From: Gemmatimonadota bacterium
Lineage (GTDB): Bacteria > Latescibacterota > UBA2968 > UBA8231
DNA: 9,187 nt
NCBI GenBank assembly: GCA_026706505.1
Contig: JAPOYQ010000153.1
Span: 1 to 9,187, forward strand
Reading direction: 5' to 3'
Made by a program: the position numbers and the translations under genes. The notes under the pieces were generated by a model. That model was not told the origin of the DNA and did no database searches. It saw only the letters and a program-made list of their open reading frames with translations. This document shows positions 1 to 8,383 of this stretch, in pieces. Each line of letters begins with the position of its first letter. Position 1 is the stretch's first letter.

Positions 1-719
1 TCCAGCTCATGGCGCACGGGCTGCCGGACGACTTCCGCTATGAGTTCGCAAGCGGAGGCCGCAACCTGTCGCGGCTGCGCTTTTCCCGCGACCACTCCAG
101 CGACTCGCTCATACTTAACGTGTACGTCCCCGAACAAGACGAGAGCTTTACAGTGGATCAGCCGTTGTTGTTCTCGGTGCTGGCCTACGAGCCAAATGCT
201 GTCGATGCCGAGGTGTTGGCCTCCGCCGATCCAGAGCGCTTGCAAGCCATGGGCATTGGCTACGAGCAACTGCAACTAGTACCCACGGGCCGGGCCGAAT
301 TGGAACTGACCACCCTCAACCTCGACCTCTCAGTCAATGGCGAGGGCGAGTCCAAGTCCGTTTGGCATTTGCGCAACCTCGGCACGGTTGAATTGCTCGA
401 CATCCGCCTGCAAGCCCTCTCGCCGCCCGGCTGGAATGTCTCCTTTGAACCGCAGGAAATCGCCCATATCTCACCGCGCGAGGAAATAGAAGCCGTGCTG
501 ACCGTGCGGCCCATCAACAGCGCCGAAATAGGGCGCTACGAAGTCAAGACCAGTGCCAGCACTCAGCACAAGGGACAGTGGGTCGAGTCGGTCGAGCGCA
601 CCGTCAACATAAACATCAAGAGCGATGGCTCGTTTTGGGGCATCACCGGGTTGGTGATCTTGCTGGTGAGCATCGTGCTGGGCATCGCCGTCTTCACCGT
701 GCAATGGAGCAAGCGATGA
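1..719 (+). CDS. Membrane-anchored NEW3-domain protein, 3' part (5' end outside window)
   Basis: The frame is open to the left edge (codons for Gln-Leu precede the first Met at 9), so this is the C-terminal part, about 238 residues, of a longer protein. The visible part is rich in beta-strand patterns. After a partial domain, residues about 95-205 (counted from the Met at 9) look like a NEW3 / NPCBM-associated Ig-like domain, with the typical pattern of a strand, NLG, then PPGW and a late GRYEVK strand. The C-terminus has one hydrophobic helix (about 214-230, GLVILLVSIVLGIAVF) followed by QWSKR, which suggests a bulk outside the membrane and a short cytoplasmic tail. Such proteins (COG1470-like) are often encoded beside ABC transporter genes, and here a TolC-like channel and an ABC ATPase follow directly. 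A role as an extracytoplasmic accessory of that exporter is inference. The NEW3 assignment rests on motif reading only. Confidence 0.75.
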   Translation, partial: QLMAHGLPDDFRYEFASGGRNLSRLRFSRDHSSDSLILNVYVPEQDESFTVDQPLLFSVLAYEPNAVDAEVLASADPERLQAMGIGYEQLQLVPTGRAELELTTLNLDLSVNGEGESKSVWHLRNLGTVELLDIRLQALSPPGWNVSFEPQEIAHISPREEIEAVLTVRPINSAEIGRYEVKTSASTQHKGQWVESVERTVNINIKSDGSFWGITGLVILLVSIVLGIAVFTVQWSKR

Positions 720-2101
720 CGGCTTATCGATCCATCTTGGCCGCCCTCTGCTGCTTGGCGAGCGTCGTCCACGCAGAGGAGTGGGATCTAACGACTTGTC
801 AGCGCGAAGCCGGCTATCACAGCCCAGTGCTCGGGGCGGCGCGCGCCCGCTGGAACCAGATGAGGGCACGCACCCGCTTCGACTACGCCGAGCAACTCCC
901 AACCATCGGCCTAAACGCTGATTACGCGCGCAGCGAATTCGCCGACGCACCGGAGACCGACCAACGCGAGCTTTTCTTGCAAGCCCAGCAAGAGATCGTG
1001 CGCTACGGAGCCACCACTCCATCGCGCTTTGCCGCCAAGCACCAGGAGCAGGCGGAAAAGGCGCACTACCGCGAGGCCATTATCGCCGTCGATAGCAAGG
1101 TGCGCCAAGCCTATTACCGCCTGCTGCTGACGCGCGACGAAATCGCCAGCCGCGACGAGTTGCTCGCCTACTTCCGCGCTAAAATGGACCGAGTGCACAC
1201 GCGCCTCGACGCCGGCTTGGCGCGGCCCGTAGAACTGCATGAGGCCGAGCTAGAGGTGTTGGAGGAACAGACGCGGATCAACAACCTCCAGCGCGAACTG
1301 CGCGCCCTACATCTGAAGCTCTTCACCGAGATCGGCCTCGTGGGCAAACGCTCGCTCCGCGCCATCGAGATCGTCGGCCCGCCCTACGAGCAACTACAGC
1401 TACTCGACCCCAGCGAAGCGGACTTGCCCGCCCTCATCGAGGAAGCCCGTGCCAACCGGCCCCACCTCGCCGAACTCGTCTGGCAAATAGACGAACAGCA
1501 GCATCAGGCGCGCAGTGTGTTCTGGCAGTGGCTACCCCACGTCGGCCTGCAACTGACCAAAGATGTCCAAGACACCGACCTCGGCTTGAACTGGAGCGGC
1601 AACGGCCAAACGTGGAAGCTGGTGGGGTCCGGTCGCCGCTCGCTCACCAGTGAGGGCTTGAATCCCGCGCTGGACCCCGGCGAAGGCTGGCGCGTGATGG
1701 CCAACGTCTCGCTGCCGCTGTTCCAAGGCGGTCGTCGGTTGGCGCGAGGGGCCGAGGAGCGGGCGCGGCTGAACGAACTGCGACAAGACCGCGACAAGAC
1801 CCGCAACTTGATTGAACTCGAAGTGGTCGAGGCGTTTTACGACCTGAAAAGCCGGCGGGAAAACACGCAGATTCTGCGCCGACGCGCCGATGTAGCCCGC
1901 CAGCGTTTGGACACAGTCGAAGAACTGTTTGAAAACGCCATGGGCAACCTCAACTTCGACGACATCCGCCGCCAGCGGGTCGCCGTCAACTCCGCCGAGC
2001 AGAGCTATTTTGCCCAGCGCTTGGCCTACATCCTCGCGGCTGAAGAGCTGCGGCGAATACTCGGCCGCGCACTCAACAGCGAATTTTACAAAACACCTTG
2101 A
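716..2101 (+). CDS. TolC-family outer-membrane efflux/secretion channel
   Basis: 461 residues, a normal length for the TolC/OEP family. Residues 1-20 form a signal peptide ending in VVHA before EEWDL. Two OEP repeats follow. The first runs from about residue 25 (PVLGAARARWNQ, then QLPTIGLNADYARSE). The second starts near residue 240 (LIEEARANRPHLAEL, then QWLPHVGLQLTKD, then the strand VSLPLFQGGRR), with long helices rich in Arg, Glu and Leu to the C-terminus. These are the strand and coiled-coil hairpin patterns of a trimeric channel crossing outer membrane and periplasm. The start at 716 is chosen because it begins the signal peptide, overlaps the previous stop as ATGA, and has GGAG at 706-709. 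The same frame is open further upstream but lies inside the preceding gene. The exported substrate cannot be told. No membrane-fusion protein gene is visible nearby. Confidence 0.93.
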   Translation: MTAYRSILAALCCLASVVHAEEWDLTTCQREAGYHSPVLGAARARWNQMRARTRFDYAEQLPTIGLNADYARSEFADAPETDQRELFLQAQQEIVRYGATTPSRFAAKHQEQAEKAHYREAIIAVDSKVRQAYYRLLLTRDEIASRDELLAYFRAKMDRVHTRLDAGLARPVELHEAELEVLEEQTRINNLQRELRALHLKLFTEIGLVGKRSLRAIEIVGPPYEQLQLLDPSEADLPALIEEARANRPHLAELVWQIDEQQHQARSVFWQWLPHVGLQLTKDVQDTDLGLNWSGNGQTWKLVGSGRRSLTSEGLNPALDPGEGWRVMANVSLPLFQGGRRLARGAEERARLNELRQDRDKTRNLIELEVVEAFYDLKSRRENTQILRRRADVARQRLDTVEELFENAMGNLNFDDIRRQRVAVNSAEQSYFAQRLAYILAAEELRRILGRALNSEFYKTP

Positions 2102-2115
2102 GAAAGGATCGCATC

Positions 2116-2838
2116 ATGTTGGAGATCATCGGACTTTCCAAGCACTACGGTGATGTCAAAGCCGTCACCGACCTCAACCTGACCATCGAAGGCGGCGAGA
2201 TCTTCACCATGCTCGGGGCCAACGGCGCGGGCAAGACCACGACCTTGATGGTCGCCTTGGGCTTTACCGAACCCACCCAAGGGACGGTCAAGCTGTGCGG
2301 CATCGACATCACCGAGCAGCCCTTAGAGGCCAAAAAGCACGTGGCCTATGTCTCGGAAAACGTCATGCTCTACGGCAACTTTAGCGCGCGACAGAATTTG
2401 GACTTCTTCACCCGCTTGAGCGGCCAGCCGCCCCAAGACGCCGAGCACTATGACGCGATTATGGCGCGCGTCGGCCTGCAACAGGAGGCGTTTGACCGGC
2501 GGGTCAAGGAGTTTTCCAAGGGGATGCGCCAGAAGCTGGGCATTGCCATTGCCATCGCCAAGGACGCCCGCATCGTGTTGCTCGACGAGCCGACATCGGG
2601 CCTCGATCCCAAGTCCGGGGCCGAGTTCTTGGAGCTGTTGGACGAGCTGCGCAACGAGGGCAAGGCGATATGGATGACCACGCACGACGTGTTCCGCGCC
2701 CGCGTGATCGCCGACCGGCTCGGCATCATGGTCGAGGGCCACCTCGTCAAGACGCTCACCCGCGACGAATTCCAAGAAGCCGACTTGGAGCGCATCTACG
2801 TCGAATACGTAGAACGGCCCGTCCTGCCAGCGGCCTAG
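2116..2838 (+). CDS. ABC transporter ATP-binding protein
   Basis: 240 residues, a single nucleotide-binding domain of the size and type that works with ABC-2-like permeases. Walker A is GANGAGKT (34-41), the signature is EFSKGMRQKL (132-141, a KGM-type variant of LSGGQ), Walker B is IVLLDEP (153-159), the D-loop is SGLD (161-164) and the switch His is H190 in TTHD. At the Q-loop, where Gln is usual, the sequence reads YVSENVMLY (78-86), with Ser-Glu. This variation is worth checking against relatives. The ATG at 2116 is chosen because AGAAAGGA at 2101-2108 lies 7 nt upstream; a TTG at 2098 in frame would overlap the tolC-like stop. The gene starts 14 nt after that stop, so it belongs to the same operon. 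It should power transport by a permease that is not in the window. Confidence 0.95.
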   Translation: MLEIIGLSKHYGDVKAVTDLNLTIEGGEIFTMLGANGAGKTTTLMVALGFTEPTQGTVKLCGIDITEQPLEAKKHVAYVSENVMLYGNFSARQNLDFFTRLSGQPPQDAEHYDAIMARVGLQQEAFDRRVKEFSKGMRQKLGIAIAIAKDARIVLLDEPTSGLDPKSGAEFLELLDELRNEGKAIWMTTHDVFRARVIADRLGIMVEGHLVKTLTRDEFQEADLERIYVEYVERPVLPAA

Positions 2839-3052: not shown

Positions 3053-3307
3053 ATGCCTACCGAACAACCCCTCACTGAGTTGACGACGCGCGACGTCTTA
3101 CTCCAAGTAGATCGCCGCCTGACCCTCATCGAAGACGACCTACGTACCCTAGACCAAAAATGGGATCAGCGATTCGGGACATTAGACCAAAAGATCGATA
3201 CCCAGAACAGCCAACTACGCCAAGAAATGAACACCAAATTTCACTGGACGCTCGGCGTCGTCTTGGCCAGTTGGATTTCCACCATCGGAACGCTGTTGCT
3301 CAAGTAA
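3053..3307 (+). CDS. Small tail-anchored coiled-coil protein
   Basis: 84 residues. Residues about 13-61 are charged with hydrophobic positions at regular spacing, as in a coiled coil. An 11-residue near-repeat is visible (TLDQKWDQRFG 32-42, TLDQKIDTQNS 43-53), which suggests a hendecad coiled coil. Residues about 64-83 (FHWTLGVVLASWISTIGTLLL) form one membrane helix, ending in Lys. The arrangement resembles small bacterial coiled-coil plus C-terminal membrane-helix families (DUF1640/Bdr-like or XhlA-like), but membership cannot be claimed from sequence reading alone. TAAGG at 3038-3042 is a modest ribosome binding site 10 nt before ATG. Its 3' end is repeated at 4683-4736 beside herA, which supports it as a real conserved gene and shows it once lay convergent with herA. 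Function unknown. Confidence 0.72.
   Translation: MPTEQPLTELTTRDVLLQVDRRLTLIEDDLRTLDQKWDQRFGTLDQKIDTQNSQLRQEMNTKFHWTLGVVLASWISTIGTLLLK
3146..3211 (+). repeat. 33-bp in-frame tandem repeat in the coiled-coil gene
   Basis: Two adjacent 33-nt units (3146-3178 and 3179-3211) each begin with codons for TLDQK and share the core TTAGACCAAAA or CTAGACCAAAA. They encode the 11-residue repeat of the coiled coil. Similarity fades in the second half of each unit. Confidence 0.6.
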
Positions 3308-3364
3308 GCACCTCTACTCCCCAAACAACGCCGCCACATCCCGCTCCACCTTTTCCCGCTGCTC
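3275..3364 (+). repeat. Left 90-bp direct repeat flanking the island
   Basis: Aligns without gaps to 4704-4793 at a constant offset of 1429 bp, with 7 mismatches by eye (3280, 3288, 3289, 3301, 3310, 3313, 3360), so 83/90 identical. It contains the last 11 codons of the small coiled-coil gene including its stop, a 6-nt gap, and the last codons of herA on the opposite strand. The longest uninterrupted identity is 46 bp (3314-3359), inside the herA part. Confidence 0.92.
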
Positions 3365-3376: not shown

Positions 3377-3482
3377 AAACAGATAGCCCGCTGCCCGTCA
3401 ATCCACACTAGCTGCTGACTCAGAACGCGCCGCAAACATTCTCGTCCGCGATTCCACCCGTTCCGTATTAACTAACCCCTAC

Positions 3483-3519
3483 TGTCCGCTGGCGAACACC
3501 TGCTGTCCGTTGGCGCACA
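3483..3519 (+). promoter_or_regulatory. Two tandem TGT-N10-ACA dyads (candidate upstream activator sites)
   Basis: TGTCCGCTGGCGAACA (3483-3498) and TGTCCGTTGGCGCACA (3504-3519) differ at 2 of 16 positions and are spaced 21 bp centre to centre, close to two helical turns. The first is a good inverted repeat (12 of 16 positions match its own reverse complement), as expected for a dimeric regulator site. TGT-N10-ACA is the classical form of NifA upstream activator sequences, and enhancer sites for other sigma-54 activators have similar dyads. They lie about 190-225 bp upstream of the -12 element below, a usual enhancer distance. Which activator binds cannot be told. Confidence 0.65.
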
Positions 3520-3597
3520 GTGAGCAGATCATCCAAACGGCGGATATCGCCAGATTTAGAATATTAAAGGATGGCAGCAAGAGCTTGCGAGACAAAC

Positions 3598-3663
3598 GAA
3601 AAATTATCTTATTTTTTATAAGACATTATTTAACAGTAAGTTATACATAAATAAGCAAAACAA
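3598..3663. promoter_or_regulatory. AT-rich, probably flexible or bent linker between activator sites and promoter
   Basis: A 66-bp stretch made mostly of A and T in otherwise GC-rich DNA. It contains the inverted repeat TCTTAT-TTTTT-ATAAGA (3607-3623) and several short A/T runs. It sits between the dyads and the sigma-54 promoter, where looping or IHF-assisted bending is normal. No good match to the IHF consensus WATCAANNNNTTR was found on either strand, so intrinsic bending is the more cautious reading. Confidence 0.5.
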
Positions 3664-3694
3664 TCGGCGCGATTGGCAACCGCTGGGCACTCCA

Positions 3695-3711
3695 TTGGCA
3701 CGATAGTTGCA
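3695..3711 (+). promoter_or_regulatory. Sigma-54 (RpoN) -24/-12 promoter
   Basis: TTGGCACGATAGTTGCA matches the sigma-54 consensus YTGGCACG-N4-TTGCW at every defined position: GG at 3697-3698 and GC at 3709-3710, with the required spacing. Transcription should start near 3720-3723, leaving a leader of about 40 nt before the ATG at 3762, with the ribosome binding site inside it. The orientation, the spacing to the gene and the paired upstream dyads all agree. Expression of the gene would therefore need an ATP-dependent enhancer-binding activator, none of which is encoded in this window. Confidence 0.85.
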
Positions 3712-3748
3712 GTAGTGCGTACCGAAGCAACAACCCGCACTCTTCCAC

Positions 3749-3756
3749 AAAGGAGG
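3749..3756 (+). promoter_or_regulatory. Strong Shine-Dalgarno sequence
   Basis: AAAGGAGG, close to full anti-16S complementarity, 5 nt before the ATG at 3762. It is the best ribosome binding site in the window and fixes the start of the secreted-protein gene. Confidence 0.85.
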
Positions 3757-3761
3757 GCATC

Positions 3762-4601
3762 ATGCAACCCTTAGCCATTCGCATCCTATCTCTCGCGCTG
3801 ATCGCCATCTCCAGCGCCGCGGCCGTCGAGACCAAGTATCCCCACGGCGGCTTTGAGCCCCGCCTCGACAAGCTCCAAGGCTTGCTTGACTATGTCCATA
3901 CCGCGAAGAAGATCAAGGTCAAAGCCGGTCCCAAGTTGTGGCAGGCCATTGAGTCCATCCCCGTCGCGGCGGGCGTCCCCATCACCCCCGAGCAAGAAGC
4001 CGACCTACGCGACTGGCTCTACGACTTTCTCATCGCCTTCTCCGCTTCTGGCAATGACAGCCTCGCCGCCGAGTTCTACCTCCGCGAGGGCGTCAACAAC
4101 CCCAGGGCTGTAAAAAATATGAAAGAGACCCTAGCGGATTGGGGCATCGCAAAAGGCGACACGCCCTTTGACATCTTCCAAGCCATGCACCGCGCCGTAC
4201 TCGACGACCAAGGCTATGAATACCGCTTTGGCAAGGCCTTCTTGCGCCACAGCACGTTCAAGGTGTTCGAGATGCAGGGCCAGTATGAAAGCTATCACAT
4301 TTACCCGAGGGAAGCTGTCAAGCAGGGCCACTACGAGAGCACGTACCCGAGGGAAGCTGTCAAGGCCAGATTCAAATTGCAGCAAGAGGTTGACGGGGCG
4401 CTGCGGGCTGGCGAGAAGCGGGTCTTCACCGACATCGCGTTTGTCACCGAAGAGCCGACCGAGTTAGCCGGATCGGAAGGACCGATCTGCACTCCCTTCT
4501 TTTGCCGGCTAGCCTGGGATCCAGAGCGGGCAATGTGGCGCTTTGTAGAGGTCGTCTACAGCTCTAAGCTGCCGCATTCTTTCCTGTTTTCGGCCATATA
4601 G
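3762..4601 (+). CDS. Exported protein of unknown family under sigma-54 control
   Basis: 279 residues; I do not recognise the family. Residues 1-21 are a clear signal peptide (MQPLAIR, hydrophobic core ILSLALIAI, then SSAAA before VETKYPHGG), so the product should be periplasmic or secreted. The mature part has no further membrane segment and is a mixed helical protein with many aromatic residues. Recognisable patches are ITPEQEADLRDWLYDFLIAF (74-93), GYEYRFGKAFLRHSTFKVFE (151-170) and, near the C-terminus, C243 and C248 in ICTPFFCRLAWD, which could form a disulfide. A tandem duplication (172-187 and 188-201, both ending in YPREAVK) interrupts the middle. The gene stands alone between a sigma-54 promoter and an intrinsic terminator, so it is a one-gene transcription unit. 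It lies inside repeats that split a formerly adjacent gene pair. No enzyme motif is evident. A surface, binding or periplasmic stress role is possible but unsupported. Confidence 0.85.
   Translation: MQPLAIRILSLALIAISSAAAVETKYPHGGFEPRLDKLQGLLDYVHTAKKIKVKAGPKLWQAIESIPVAAGVPITPEQEADLRDWLYDFLIAFSASGNDSLAAEFYLREGVNNPRAVKNMKETLADWGIAKGDTPFDIFQAMHRAVLDDQGYEYRFGKAFLRHSTFKVFEMQGQYESYHIYPREAVKQGHYESTYPREAVKARFKLQQEVDGALRAGEKRVFTDIAFVTEEPTELAGSEGPICTPFFCRLAWDPERAMWRFVEVVYSSKLPHSFLFSAI
4275..4364 (+). repeat. In-frame tandem duplication inside the secreted-protein gene
   Basis: Unit 1 (4275-4322, 48 nt) encodes QGQYESYHIYPREAVK and unit 2 (4323-4364, 42 nt) encodes QGHYESTYPREAVK. Their last 21 nt (4302-4322 and 4344-4364) are identical and both begin CAGGGCCA. 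Unit 2 lacks two codons. Identity including silent positions suggests a fairly recent duplication. Confidence 0.88.
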
Positions 4602-4632
4602 CCGGCCTTGTAACTTTACTTGAGTAACGCAG

Positions 4633-4671
4633 AAAAAGCGGGCAGTTCGTCTATGAACTGCCCGCTTTTTT
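4633..4671. terminator. Intrinsic, probably bidirectional terminator
   Basis: GCGGGCAGTTC (4638-4648) pairs perfectly with GAACTGCCCGC (4655-4665) around the loop GTCTAT. The stem is preceded by AAAAA and followed by TTTTTT, so it should work on both strands. It ends the secreted-protein unit 32 nt after its stop and lies 62 nt past the herA stop on the other strand, serving both convergent units. Confidence 0.92.
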
Positions 4672-4682
4672 CGTGGCCGACC

Positions 4683-4736
4683 GACTTGGCATCACGGACC
4701 AAAATTTCTACCATCGAGACGCTGTTGCTTAAGTAA
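4683..4736 (+). pseudogene. 3'-end remnant of the small coiled-coil gene
   Basis: Plus-strand reading gives DLASRTKISTIETLLLK and a stop, against VLASWISTIGTLLLK and a stop at the end of the intact small protein (two-residue indel). There is no start or upstream coiled-coil part; the sequence before it is the terminator. It sits 6 nt from the herA stop, the same spacing as between the intact small gene and the herA remnant at 3308-3313. This marks the right edge of the island. Confidence 0.8.
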
Positions 4737-4793
4737 GCTCCCCTACTCCCCAAACAACGCCGCCACATCCCGCTCCACCTTTTCCCGCCGCTC
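4704..4793 (+). repeat. Right 90-bp direct repeat flanking the island
   Basis: Partner of 3275-3364 (83/90 identical, ungapped). Here the herA part is the 3' end of the intact gene, while the coiled-coil part is only a fragment. Confidence 0.92.
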
Positions 4794-6425
4794 CTCGGCG
4801 GGCAGGTCGTCCATACAGCCCATCGCACTGTAGAACTGAGCGTCGTAGTCGCGGGTCTTGATCACCACCGGCATGGGCACGGCGTGGCCGATGATCAACG
4901 CCTGCTGCTTGGAGTCGAGGCTGGCTAGCACGCTGCGCAGCCCTTCAGTGCCGCTGACGCCGGTGAGTACGGCTTGGATGTCCTTCTCGTCGTTGAGTAG
5001 AGCTGTGATGCGCGTGCCGATCTGCGAGAGCACCTCGTCATCAATGCTCGACGGCCGCTGATCGACGACTAGCAGCGAGACATAGTACTTGCGCATCTCG
5101 CGGGCAATGGTGCCGAAGATGGTCTGCTTAGCCGCCATGGGGTTGAGGAATTTGTGCGCCTCCTCAATGGTGATCATGAGCTGACGCGGCTGATCTTCGG
5201 GGCGCTGGGTGGCGTAGAAGCGCTCGCTCTTTTTGACGTACATTTCGTGGATGCGCCGCGCGATAATGTTGGCCACCAGCAAATAGCACAACATACTCGT
5301 CTGCTGCCCAAACTCCAGCACCACGTTGATCCCCTTGTCGAGGTATTCCATGATGCGGTCCACCACGTCGCCGTCCCGTAGCTTGGATACCATAAAGGGA
5401 AAGTTTTCCAGCCGTTTGAGCTTGCGATGCAGAGCGACTAAAGACCCGGCGTGCGCGCCGATCTCGCGGGCAAATTCCTCCACATCCGGGCCTTCTAGCT
5501 TCAAGAGCGTGCTCAGCCAGCGCTCCTTGTAAATCGCGTACACTAAGTAAGCCGACTCCACGGCCGTGGGGTTGAGCTTCAACTCATCCTGCAGCGGGGC
5601 AATGTCTTCGACGGTGATCTGGTCGTAGGAGATATAGACCTCGTGATCCGGCTGCACGCCGCGGGCGCGGGTCGATTGCGGGTCTAAGGAAAAGATCGCC
5701 ACCCGCTCACCGAAAAGCTGCTTGAGACCCTTGACGAAGGTCGTGGTGGAGCCGTTTTCCTTCATGGCCTTGAACCCGTACTCGTTGTGCATGTCAAAGA
5801 TTAGGTTGACGGCCTTGTCGTAGTGAATCAGCCCGCACAGCGCCAGCCGGGTCAGGAAGGACTTGCCCGTACCCGTCTTGCCGAAGATGCCGTTGGAGCG
5901 CTCGGCAAAGCGGATCATATCGAGGCAGACCTGCGTGTCCATGTCGAGCGGATTGCCGATGCTGAAGTAGCGACCCTCGGCGTCGCCCTCGCAGCCGAAA
6001 ATCTTGGCCACGTCGTCGGCCATGGCCTCTTGGACTTCGGAAAAGTGGCTCGGAATGGCCTTGACCGGACGCGGGCCTTCGTCGGCCGCCGCGTCCTTGG
6101 GCATCATCAGCATGGGCCGCAGCGAGACGATGTTGTACGTGCTGGTGCCGGCGAGCACTTGGCGCAACAGCGCGTCTTCTTGGCCCGGCGGATGTAGGAG
6201 AATTTCTTGGTTGTTGGCGTCGAGGCGCATGTCGGTGACCATAGAGAAGAAGTCGTTTTTGTCGCCCTCGATGACCACGAACTTGCCGGCCTTCATGTCC
6301 TCGACGTTCTGCTCGGGGTCCAGCTTCATCTCCAGCCCCTCGACCAGCGAGCCTTTGGTAATCACCCCGATCTGCTTCCCGCGACCGGCTGCGGCTGGCA
6401 CTCCGTTGTGCGCGTATTTTGCCAT
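4743..6425 (-). CDS. herA: HerA-like DNA-translocating ATPase/helicase
   Basis: 560 residues, normal for HerA. The N-terminal part (about 15-110, with GKFVVIEGDKNDFFSMVTDM) fits the HAS barrel. The RecA-like core follows: Walker A GKTGTGKS (182-189), the HerA motif LIFDMHNEYG (208-217), Walker B LMITIEEAHKF (416-426) with E421/E422 as catalytic candidates, then AREMRKY (441-447) and VDQRPSSID (454-462), the arginine-finger and sensor region of HerA/FtsK-type motors. HerA hexamers pump DNA and work with NurA in end resection. The ATG at 6425 gives MAKYAHNG and lies 2 nt after the stop of the preceding gene. A TTG at 6431, overlapping that stop by 4 nt, is an alternative with closer spacing to GGGTGG. 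It is the last gene of the operon and ends convergent to the island. Its final 20 codons are repeated at 3314-3373. Confidence 0.95.
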   Translation of the reverse strand: MAKYAHNGVPAAAGRGKQIGVITKGSLVEGLEMKLDPEQNVEDMKAGKFVVIEGDKNDFFSMVTDMRLDANNQEILLHPPGQEDALLRQVLAGTSTYNIVSLRPMLMMPKDAAADEGPRPVKAIPSHFSEVQEAMADDVAKIFGCEGDAEGRYFSIGNPLDMDTQVCLDMIRFAERSNGIFGKTGTGKSFLTRLALCGLIHYDKAVNLIFDMHNEYGFKAMKENGSTTTFVKGLKQLFGERVAIFSLDPQSTRARGVQPDHEVYISYDQITVEDIAPLQDELKLNPTAVESAYLVYAIYKERWLSTLLKLEGPDVEEFAREIGAHAGSLVALHRKLKRLENFPFMVSKLRDGDVVDRIMEYLDKGINVVLEFGQQTSMLCYLLVANIIARRIHEMYVKKSERFYATQRPEDQPRQLMITIEEAHKFLNPMAAKQTIFGTIAREMRKYYVSLLVVDQRPSSIDDEVLSQIGTRITALLNDEKDIQAVLTGVSGTEGLRSVLASLDSKQQALIIGHAVPMPVVIKTRDYDAQFYSAMGCMDDLPAEERREKVERDVAALFGE

Positions 6426-6427
6426 CG

Positions 6428-7084
6428 TCAATTGACCACCCGTCGGATAATCGAGCTAAGCCGATCATAGTCGTCGCTGAGAAGCCGCGACAGTTCCTTG
6501 CCCATTTGTACCAAATAGGACGGCGCGTGCGCGTGGGCGCGCACCGTGTGGCGCAACACGGCGATCACCAGCTCGTCAGTGGGTATTTTGGACGTGTTGA
6601 GAATGCTGCGCAGATAGTCGTCGGTGCGCGTGAAGGACCGCACTTGCTCGTCTGAACACAAGTACACAAAGCTGTGGATGCGTGCCGGCTGCGGCGGCAG
6701 GATCTGCACGGACTCGTCGCCATCCAAGTAGCCGATGACGAGGGCTTGGAACTCCGTGCGCAGCAGTTCGAAAATTTGCGGCTGTTCTAGGCGCAGTTCC
6801 TCTTCGGTCTTGCCATAAGCCGTGGGCCGGCGGTTTGGCTCGATGGAGTGCGTGAAAACGTTGAATACAATGCCGACCACCGGCATATCGGCTTCCACGC
6901 GGACGAACTGACCAAAGGAGGGCGCGCCGTGCAGCTCGCGCGCTTGGGCGATCAACTCGGTGGTGCTGCTCTCGACCACTTCGCCCACGTGAGTCCGCTC
7001 GTCCTCAGTGTCGTCGGGCAACGGCAGAGCCTCAGACCGAAAGCGGCTCAGCGGGCTTTGCTCGCGCTCTTTGATAGTCTCCAC
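6428..7084 (-). CDS. HAS-barrel-like protein of the HerA-NurA operon
   Basis: 218 residues, starting with GTG at 7084, which has GGGGAGG 6 nt upstream (12 nt after the nurA stop). Residues about 32-78 (VGEVVESSTTELIAQ, then FGQFVRVEADMPVVGIVFNV) resemble the small barrel found at the HerA N-terminus (HAS barrel: a GEV strand, then GxFV, then a GIV strand). The middle (QALVIGYLDG, then ILPPQPARIHSFVYLCSDEQ) continues the beta pattern, and the C-terminal 60 residues are helical and basic (VLRHTVRAHAHA, LSRLLSDDYDRLSSIIRRVV). No catalytic motif is seen. Its position between nurA and herA suggests an adaptor or regulator of the complex; that is inference. It could instead be a lineage-specific protein with only superficial barrel likeness. 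Confidence 0.8.
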   Translation of the reverse strand: METIKEREQSPLSRFRSEALPLPDDTEDERTHVGEVVESSTTELIAQARELHGAPSFGQFVRVEADMPVVGIVFNVFTHSIEPNRRPTAYGKTEEELRLEQPQIFELLRTEFQALVIGYLDGDESVQILPPQPARIHSFVYLCSDEQVRSFTRTDDYLRSILNTSKIPTDELVIAVLRHTVRAHAHAPSYLVQMGKELSRLLSDDYDRLSSIIRRVVN

Positions 7085-7096
7085 GATGGGCCTCCC

Positions 7097-8383
7097 CTAA
7101 ATGCCGGTGTAGCGCTTCTTGAAACTCTTCGTCGACAAGTGGGTTTGCAGGTCGTTTTTGACAAAGGTATCGCGCAAAAAGCGATAGAATGTCTCGCGAT
7201 CCGCACTGCGCACCACGGCGCGCTCGTGCGCCTCAGCCAAGGCGACCGGATAGCCCTGGCCTTTTTCGGCCTGGTCGTATAAACAGGCGTGAACCAAGTC
7301 GAGCAACTCGCGATCAGTCGCCACCCATTCCGGGACTTCGACCCGGCCGATCTCCGTTCCCACGTGCAGGTAAAAGTAGTAGATGTGATGCGGTCCGTAT
7401 TCGGCGAGGATTTTGGATGCGCTGCGGTAGAGCGGCGTGCGCTGCCCAAGGCGCAGTACGCGCCTCACCAAGACCGCGTCGCTCAGTCCTTCAATTGGGC
7501 TACAGGGCAAGCCGCGTCCCTGCCACAAATCCCCGTTCAGCGCGTCGATTTCTTCGCGGCTGAAGTGGAGTTGATTTTCTTCCTGATAAGGGCAGCGGTC
7601 GCAGTCGGCCGCGGCAAGCGGGCACAGGCCCAGCTTGAGGGCGTTGATCAATTCTTGGCTCCCCGGCTGGCTAATGTACCCAGCCACCGGCACCCGCGCT
7701 TCGCGCAACTCGTCCATCGCCGCTATGGTGGCCTCTAGGTGCGCGGCGCGGAAGTCCTGCGGCTTGCCCTCCAAGTTCCACAGAATCAGCGTGCCGTCGG
7801 AAAGCGCCAGCGTCCGGTGTCCCTCGGCGTGGGCTGCCAACGCCAAATCGGCCAACTCAGTAAACTCCATGAGGCCGCGCTTGAAGCCGACGAGTTCGCG
7901 ATTGACGAAGACCCGCGCCCCACCCCATTCCTCGTAGATTTCCTCCTCTCGGTAGTAGAGCCGCGGCTTGCTGCTCATCAGCGGCTTCTCGCCCGTGCCG
8001 TAGTGCAGCAGGATGTAGCCGATATTGATCAGAAAACAGGCCGAGATTTCGTGGCGGTCGGGAAAAATTTGCGAGCCGTCCGTGGCGGCGATGCTGATGG
8101 TGCTCGGGCGGGAGGGCGCGTCGACCCCGCCGCCGAGGCCTTCGCCCAAACCGGGCAACAGCCAAGAGGTGCGGCTGTCGCCGATCTTGCGGGCCAAGCG
8201 CTCCCAGTCGGGCAGCCAGCGCTGGTACTCGGCCAAAGCCAATTCGAGCTTGGCGCGAAAGTCCTCTTGGACGCGGCGCTCGTCGGCCACCATGCCGTCT
8301 ATTTGGGTCTTTACTGAATACAGATCCAACATGGCATTAGCCTTGCGGGCAACCTTGGACCGGCCCCGTCGCGATGCGCGCAT
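7097..8383 (-). CDS. nurA: NurA-family DNA repair nuclease
   Basis: 428 residues. The NurA core is visible: TDGSQIFPD (101-109) with D102 as a metal-binding candidate, a second acidic motif LALSDGTLILW (192-202) with D196, and conserved C-terminal blocks HHIYYFYLHVG, RVEVPEW and GYPVALAEAHERA. NurA is a manganese-dependent nuclease, 5'-to-3' on DNA ends, that docks on HerA. Four cysteines (C254, C261, C264, C294) lie in an insertion between the core motifs, in the order CPLAAADCDRC and then LPCSP. The start at 8383 directly follows the TAA of the preceding gene and has GGAAGAGG 8 nt upstream. It gives a basic leader (MRASRRGRSKVARKANA). An in-frame ATG at 8332 gives MLDLYSV, a more usual NurA beginning, and is a serious alternative. 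Confidence 0.92.
   Translation of the reverse strand: MRASRRGRSKVARKANAMLDLYSVKTQIDGMVADERRVQEDFRAKLELALAEYQRWLPDWERLARKIGDSRTSWLLPGLGEGLGGGVDAPSRPSTISIAATDGSQIFPDRHEISACFLINIGYILLHYGTGEKPLMSSKPRLYYREEEIYEEWGGARVFVNRELVGFKRGLMEFTELADLALAAHAEGHRTLALSDGTLILWNLEGKPQDFRAAHLEATIAAMDELREARVPVAGYISQPGSQELINALKLGLCPLAAADCDRCPYQEENQLHFSREEIDALNGDLWQGRGLPCSPIEGLSDAVLVRRVLRLGQRTPLYRSASKILAEYGPHHIYYFYLHVGTEIGRVEVPEWVATDRELLDLVHACLYDQAEKGQGYPVALAEAHERAVVRSADRETFYRFLRDTFVKNDLQTHLSTKSFKKRYTGI

Follow-up and report, generated by a model that had tools for sequence, protein, structure and literature searches.

A sigma-54 control region in Latescibacterota that may join the promoter of an exported-protein array to the enhancer of an efflux activator

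At sigma-54 promoters, paired upstream sites carry an activator ring that contacts the closed complex through a DNA loop and opens it, and the spelling TGT-N10-ACA is known as the upstream activator motif of NifA. The PEP-CTERM/PrsK-PrsR-PrsT regulons of Proteobacteria comprise, according to the available parts of their descriptions, many single-gene units for exported proteins with long intergenic regions (Haft, 2006, PMC1569441; PMC9850573). The same parts describe a 17-nt enhancer motif, sometimes repeated, a spacer of ∼63 nt and a sigma-54 site, and the regulons come with a histidine kinase, an NtrC-like response regulator and a TPR protein (PMC1569441; PMC9850573). A 2025 paper claims, in the text available from it, the first evidence tying sigma-54 to FtsX-like permeases (PMC12316311). 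No description of the gene array or of the enhancer reported here was found among the open-licence papers listed, and the literature search returned no paper joining Latescibacter, sponge and sigma-54.

The region ahead of the gene studied here (FAM) in the window, i.e., the whole 9,187-nt stretch of DNA analysed, is a real sigma-54 control region of good make; its combination of parts is new, but it is not a new kind of system. The -24/-12 element, TTGGCACGATAGTTGCA, was the sole full match to TTGGCACRNNNNTTGCW on both strands of the window, agreeing at every defined letter (GG and GC at fixed spacing), and all 17 of its letters recur ahead of the FAM1 gene of the related genome G051. With up to two mismatches allowed, two matches to TTGGCACRNNNNTTGCW were found in the window against 0.89 expected. 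A weaker -24/-12-like element (2982–2998, 11/13 with two mismatches) precedes a small ORF (3053–3307). The predicted leader is exactly the upstream part common to four further copies of the gene, L001–L004. FAM is likely to be transcribed alone since it has its own hairpin behind the stop codon, a structure that was not among the results of a terminator consensus scan.

Upstream, two dyads begin 212 and 191 nt before the first letter of the -24 element, a step of 21 bp. They are paired, helically phased inverted repeats inside the 80–250 nt range typical for an NtrC-family enhancer. The TGT-N10-ACA spelling alone is weak evidence, as it occurs three times in the window (0.85 expected) and at least three times in 14 of 200 shuffles; a tandem TGTYCG-N4-CGNACA pair was found in 0/200 shuffles even with three mismatches allowed. 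The form TGTCCG-N4-CGNACA, hereafter class I, fits the dyads better than TGT-N10-ACA. Among the elements tried, a lone dyad at 121–136 (TGTACGTCCCCGAACA) was rejected as coding conservation, because it falls within the coding sequence of NEW3 and recurs in the NEW3 genes of G004 and G050. Likewise, CTGTCCGYTGGYG was discarded as a dispersed repeat: it gave 34 matches in eight genomes against six in the control, and most of 30 contexts looked coding or unrelated. The first-pass annotation had named the promoter element with all its defined bases, the two 16-bp dyads about 200 bp upstream, the AT-rich linker and the ribosome binding site, and all of these were borne out. Its view that one exported protein is controlled by a sigma-54 promoter and paired enhancer, with the activator encoded elsewhere, was supported as well. 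The coordinates are collected in Table 1.

Table 1. Positions of the features of the FAM locus in the window.
Feature	Position	Strand	Remark
NEW3-domain protein end (truncated at the window edge), OEP outer-membrane protein, ABC ATPase	3..2838	+	
90-bp direct repeat, left copy	3275..3364	+	flanks FAM cassette
Class I enhancer dyad 1, TGTCCGCTGGCGAACA	3483..3498	+	kept in G051
Class I enhancer dyad 2, TGTCCGTTGGCGCACA	3504..3519	+	kept in G051 with 2 changes
AT-rich linker	3596..3662 (about)	+	alignable with linker of array promoters
Sigma-54 -24/-12 element	3695..3711	+	13/13 defined letters
Predicted 5' leader from +1	3722..3761	+	+1 inferred from -12 position
Ribosome binding site AGGAGG	3751..3756	+	sequence; ATG at 3762
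FAM, 279 aa, signal-peptide-like N-terminus	3762..4601	+	without Pfam or NCBIfam family
Likely terminator, perfect 16-bp hairpin and T tail	4633..4670	+	inverted repeat
90-bp direct repeat, right copy	4704..4793	+	92% identical to left copy

Similar to NifA sites, the window sites have the TGT-N10-ACA spelling and are paired upstream of a -24/-12 element, but they contain a CCG..CG core and go with different activators, of which the two considered show no NifA-level match. The assignment to NifA in the first-pass annotation was rejected on the scores of the two activators considered, which gave 326.8 and 365.6 bits against the TIGR01817 cut-off of 528.85, and on site context, the sites being present at unrelated efflux loci also. 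As compared with the PEP-CTERM regulons, FAM has no PEP-CTERM tail and its array has ABC-2 permeases and an OEP/NEW3/ABC exporter. The window sites end in CGNACA and the published PEP-CTERM motif, in the part of the description available, in TTTACA.

The FAM protein ends in SFLFSAI and gave no match, PEP-CTERM tail included, in searches of Pfam and NCBIfam. Among solved structures, only two weak sequence matches were obtained (E 0.029 and 0.17), and Foldseek returned no family at E < 0.001; the fold compared with the protein was NTF2/SnoaL-like. Metagenomic sequence relatives numbered 348 at E ≤ 0.001, 120 of them listed, and those in named records belong to Latescibacterota, part of which are labelled Gemmatimonadetes. 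Part of the Latescibacterota records in this set presumably derive from sponge samples. The family was present in 8 of 64 genomes of the phylum of G003, with 19 matched pieces in G051 and 16 in G005, and none was confirmed in viral contigs. At 4302–4364 of the window, an exact 21-nt repeat 42 nt apart in FAM gives an extra YPREAVK segment, which is missing or variable in other FAM1 proteins.

The gene order of the window is NEW3 (cut), OEP, ABC, the small ORF and FAM, followed by HerA-HAS-NurA on the opposite strand. It contains the final part of the block that in G051 closes the FAM array with NEW3-OEP-ABC and then HerA-HAS-NurA. Homology to the FAM1 gene of G051 runs from about 3453 through the terminator. 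Each copy of the 90-bp repeat links the small ORF's end with that of HerA; in G004 these two ends are separated by ∼2 kb. No FAM match was found in the stretch between ABC and HerA of G004, and the cassette in the window is flanked by the repeats; hence, it has evidently been inserted secondarily between ABC and HerA.

FAM is a multicopy family of Latescibacterota with arrays that include a histidine kinase, an NtrC-type activator, ABC-2 permeases and an exporter operon. The description of FAM as a single target was incomplete, since the gene belongs to a large family driven by sigma-54. In the complete chromosome of G051, FAM genes lie behind a kinase (HisKA and HATPase above the Pfam cut-offs, Cache and HAMP below) and the NtrC-type activator, and are interleaved with ABC-2 permeases (PF12679, DUF3526), a TPR protein and a glycosyltransferase/transglutaminase-like protein. 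The array then continues to NEW3-OEP-ABC, an operon having a sigma-54 promoter with dyads of a second form, GTGCG-N9-CGCAC (class II; at 42962), and to HerA-HAS-NurA. Sigma-54 itself (PF04552) was detected in eight of the nine related genomes that were searched, the exception being G002. A part of the G051 array (L059–L061, G051:C1:5198000–5257999) holds about a dozen FAM genes or fragments, some of them broken, and repeated ABC-2 permease genes, and looks like a gene family growing by tandem duplication. Past NurA (60817–65735, L061/L062), an inverted second partial copy contains ABC, the OEP end, permeases and a FAM piece.

To compare enhancers, sigma-54 elements with at least 12/13 letters and at least 260 nt of upstream DNA were counted in the window and ten array regions; L066:49 was left out for having too little upstream DNA. 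A class II site within one mismatch, 100–260 nt upstream, was found at 17 of these 20 strong promoters, in tandem at 16, as against 73/6000 (tandem 2/6000) in shuffled upstream stretches, the consensus having been drawn from the promoters on which it was counted and the scan of the phylum being the more independent test. Class II sites recur near -205, -183 and -162, a ladder with steps of ∼21 bp. That scan found class II tandems in 5 of 64 genomes (11 places in G051, four in G005 and one each in G004, G049 and G043, the last probably a chance match), with none in the reversed control. Eight of the 11 places in G051 are in the array, two overlap ahead of a FAM copy at ∼4.607 Mb and one is at 1,504,482. 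G050, which has the array, was missed by the tandem scan because its sites are 43 bp apart. The FAM copies in L064, L069, L070, L074 and L078 had no adjoining sigma-54 element of at least 11/13, those in L069, L070 and L078 standing at contig edges; these copies, like the promoter L063:5878 described next, do not fit a simple picture of the array.

The three promoters lacking class II are those of the window FAM gene, of FAM1 in G051 and L063:5878. The last has neither enhancer class, and the first two bear a class I pair in place of class II, no class II site within one mismatch being present 100–260 nt upstream of either. In G051, the class I dyads are located at -214/-193 with the identical 21-bp spacing, and differ from those of the window by three changes in 37 letters. 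Class I at FAM is known from these two sequences.

Class I-like sites, searched as TGTCCGCTGGYGATACA with up to one mismatch, gave 21 matches at 12 places in six of eight genomes (control, 3). At ten of the places, a sigma-54-like element of at least 11/13 was found at a distance of ∼65 nt; the remaining two are cut off by contig edges. The first gene behind these ten promoters is HlyD-like in four, an FtsX-like permease in four and a subtilase-like gene in two; Pfam confirmed the genes of L127 (HlyD, ABC, MacB/FtsX) and one subtilase, and the others are assigned by resemblance. As far as the available text goes, this home of class I corresponds to the described FtsX-like/MacAB ABC systems, in which HlyD, an ABC ATPase and MacB/FtsX lie behind a sigma-54 promoter (PMC12316311). 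FAM1, however, encodes an exported protein of another family, and has only the enhancer class in common with those systems.

A gene for a PrsR-like response-regulator activator of one group, EBP-I, is present in the class I locus of five genomes (G003, G049, G051, G001 and G005). The DNA-binding helix of EBP-I (...TRTALYRRMEKYGL) differs from that of the array activator. PrsR is its best NCBIfam resemblance, but the cut-off of the PrsR equivalog TIGR02915 (502.6) was reached neither by EBP-I (429.5) nor by the array activator (380.3). The last 75 alignment columns of EBP-I, helix included, are 89–100% identical among G003, G049, G004, G001 and G051, and 28–34% identical to those of the array activator, HTH included. 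Further, positions 3479–3530 of the window match the region upstream of EBP-I in G003 (82%, E 6e-7). The match extends to letters outside the dyads, which suggests that the two enhancers are related by descent and not by convergence alone.

The best explanation of these observations, to which we assign a probability of roughly 0.6, is that the control region of FAM belongs to two circuits, with the core, linker and leader of the FAM array and the enhancer of the efflux activator, exchanged in cis. This reading is based on the presence of class II at 17 of 20 array promoters while the window FAM gene and FAM1 of G051 have class I. Owing to the co-location of class I-like sites with the EBP-I gene in five genomes, the activator of the window FAM gene is rather probably EBP-I or a close relative. 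From the same co-location of sites and activator genes, we infer binding by EBP-I; that it activates, and that the enhancer was exchanged in cis and in this direction, is likewise our interpretation. In such a scheme, sigma-54 RNA polymerase would sit closed at 3695–3711, and a phosphorylated EBP-I-type activator would bind 3483–3519 as dimers and form a ring, the two sites, two helical turns apart, placing two dimers on one face. The ring would loop across the AT-rich linker and melt the promoter at the expense of ATP; the transcript would start near 3722 and end at the hairpin, and the protein would then be exported. The window FAM gene thus probably answers to a different signal than its family relatives, and FAM1 would be expressed as part of the envelope-efflux response, apart from the other members of the family.

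Several observations weigh against an exchanged enhancer. The FAM1 dyads are 16-mers and lie 175 nt from the promoter, whereas the efflux loci have mostly 17-mers (one of each in G003 and G049) at about 65 nt; 2 of the 10 efflux-type places precede a subtilase-like gene and no efflux gene; and class I at FAM comes from two sequences only. In the more distant G014, all eight tandem TGTCCG pairs adjoin sigma-54-like elements (at least 10/13), a point in favour, but the EBP-I helix was found in none of the four activator ends read, a point against. The TGTCCG site type is evidently a sigma-54 enhancer more widely. If the exchange is true, a bacterial enhancer was swapped as a module, with the same core and gene family, a similar distance and the same 21-bp phasing, which offers a natural test of sigma-54 network rewiring in cis. 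The rewiring in Pseudomonas fluorescens likewise placed a target gene under a different sigma-54 activator, as stated in the available parts of the reports (PMC5349173; PMC10482368). At the window FAM gene, the change would be in the enhancer DNA (in cis). In the Pseudomonas cases, by contrast, it is reportedly the activator protein that changes (in trans). The comparison also names a large uncharacterised exported-protein family with exporter, kinase and activator in uncultured Latescibacterota.

It is possible, though rather unlikely, that the TGTCCG pair is the target of the NtrC-type activator encoded in the array itself, class II being served by some other activator. In G051, the kinase (3678–5837), the activator (5843–7225), the class I dyads (7511–7547) and FAM1 (7791) adjoin, so that this activator could regulate FAM1, a point that also counts against the exchanged enhancer. 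G005 and G049 have class II sites and, as nearest relatives of the array activator, proteins only 61–62% identical; hence, class II does not perfectly track the 92% orthologue. However, in G004, the FAM promoter that comes after the orthologue (92%) bears class II sites, and G050 has the orthologue (92%) with class II sites, yet no class I match. The presence of another activator gene next to class I-like sites in five genomes and the low identity of the HTH-containing ends of the two activators argue against this alternative as well.

The dyads could also be a relic, which we regard as improbable; FAM1 would then still depend on the array system, or on the sigma-54 core and an activator that works from solution or from weak sites not seen here. 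Sigma-54 activators at high concentration can work without strong sites, and a degenerate palindrome, GGCGGATATCGCC, noted by eye at about 3540–3552, is a candidate decayed class II site. A relic agrees poorly with the retention of both dyads at unchanged spacing in the two copies, as described above, and with the lack of a class II site within one mismatch at either.

The proteins of L001–L004 are 74–87% identical to the window FAM protein, and neither the sigma-54 element nor the dyads were found upstream in any of the four. The refuting condition set by the first-pass annotation, dyads lost while the gene is kept, thus gave a split outcome: dyads and promoter were conserved in G051, the one other such copy with enough upstream DNA, and absent in L001–L004. 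The coding DNA of the window FAM gene is 90.8% identical to L001 as against 85.0% to FAM1 of G051. Promoter type does not track coding similarity, which fits an exchange of control DNA. A tree of the FAM1 copies had one of eight inner branches well supported, and gives no order of promoter changes. A sequence GGTTCAC-N17-GATCATA (or GGTCATA) lies upstream of FAM in 4/4 and of the neighbouring gene in 3/4 of these loci. Its spacing and neighbours point to an ECF promoter; in G001, the FAM neighbour is redoxin-like and is followed by an ECF sigma gene and a gene with a weak zf-HC2 match. In both L001 and L004 (5911–6990 in each), a ∼70-bp ECF-like promoter element was observed before FAM and again before the next gene.

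Homology of L001–L004 starts at 3722 of the window and 7752 of G051, i.e., at the predicted +1, in 8/8 comparisons, the ends of local alignments being uncertain by a few letters and the G005 boundary falling four letters inside +1. An improbable reading is that FAM is a portable output unit, cut at the transcription start and placed under three controls (class II, class I and ECF); in its boldest form, suggested by the position of this boundary, the ECF-type copies would have arisen from transcript cDNA. Apart from the uncertainty of the boundary, the cDNA form is opposed by the 3' end, as the homology does not reach the terminator hairpin and breaks off shortly behind the stop codon. A non-regulatory origin, in which the gene is a decaying duplicate and its perfect promoter a mere look-alike, is suggested by the flanking 90-bp duplication and by broken FAM copies elsewhere (interior stops, fragments), but is very improbable given the intact 279-codon frame, the 13/13 promoter letters, the same structure in G051 and tandem dyads in 0/200 shuffles.

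At another locus of the family (L006, near 2716–2900), the sigma-54 promoter and the FAM gene are separated by the coding sequence of a small secreted peptide rich in cysteine; the same position in G051 holds a far shorter reading frame.
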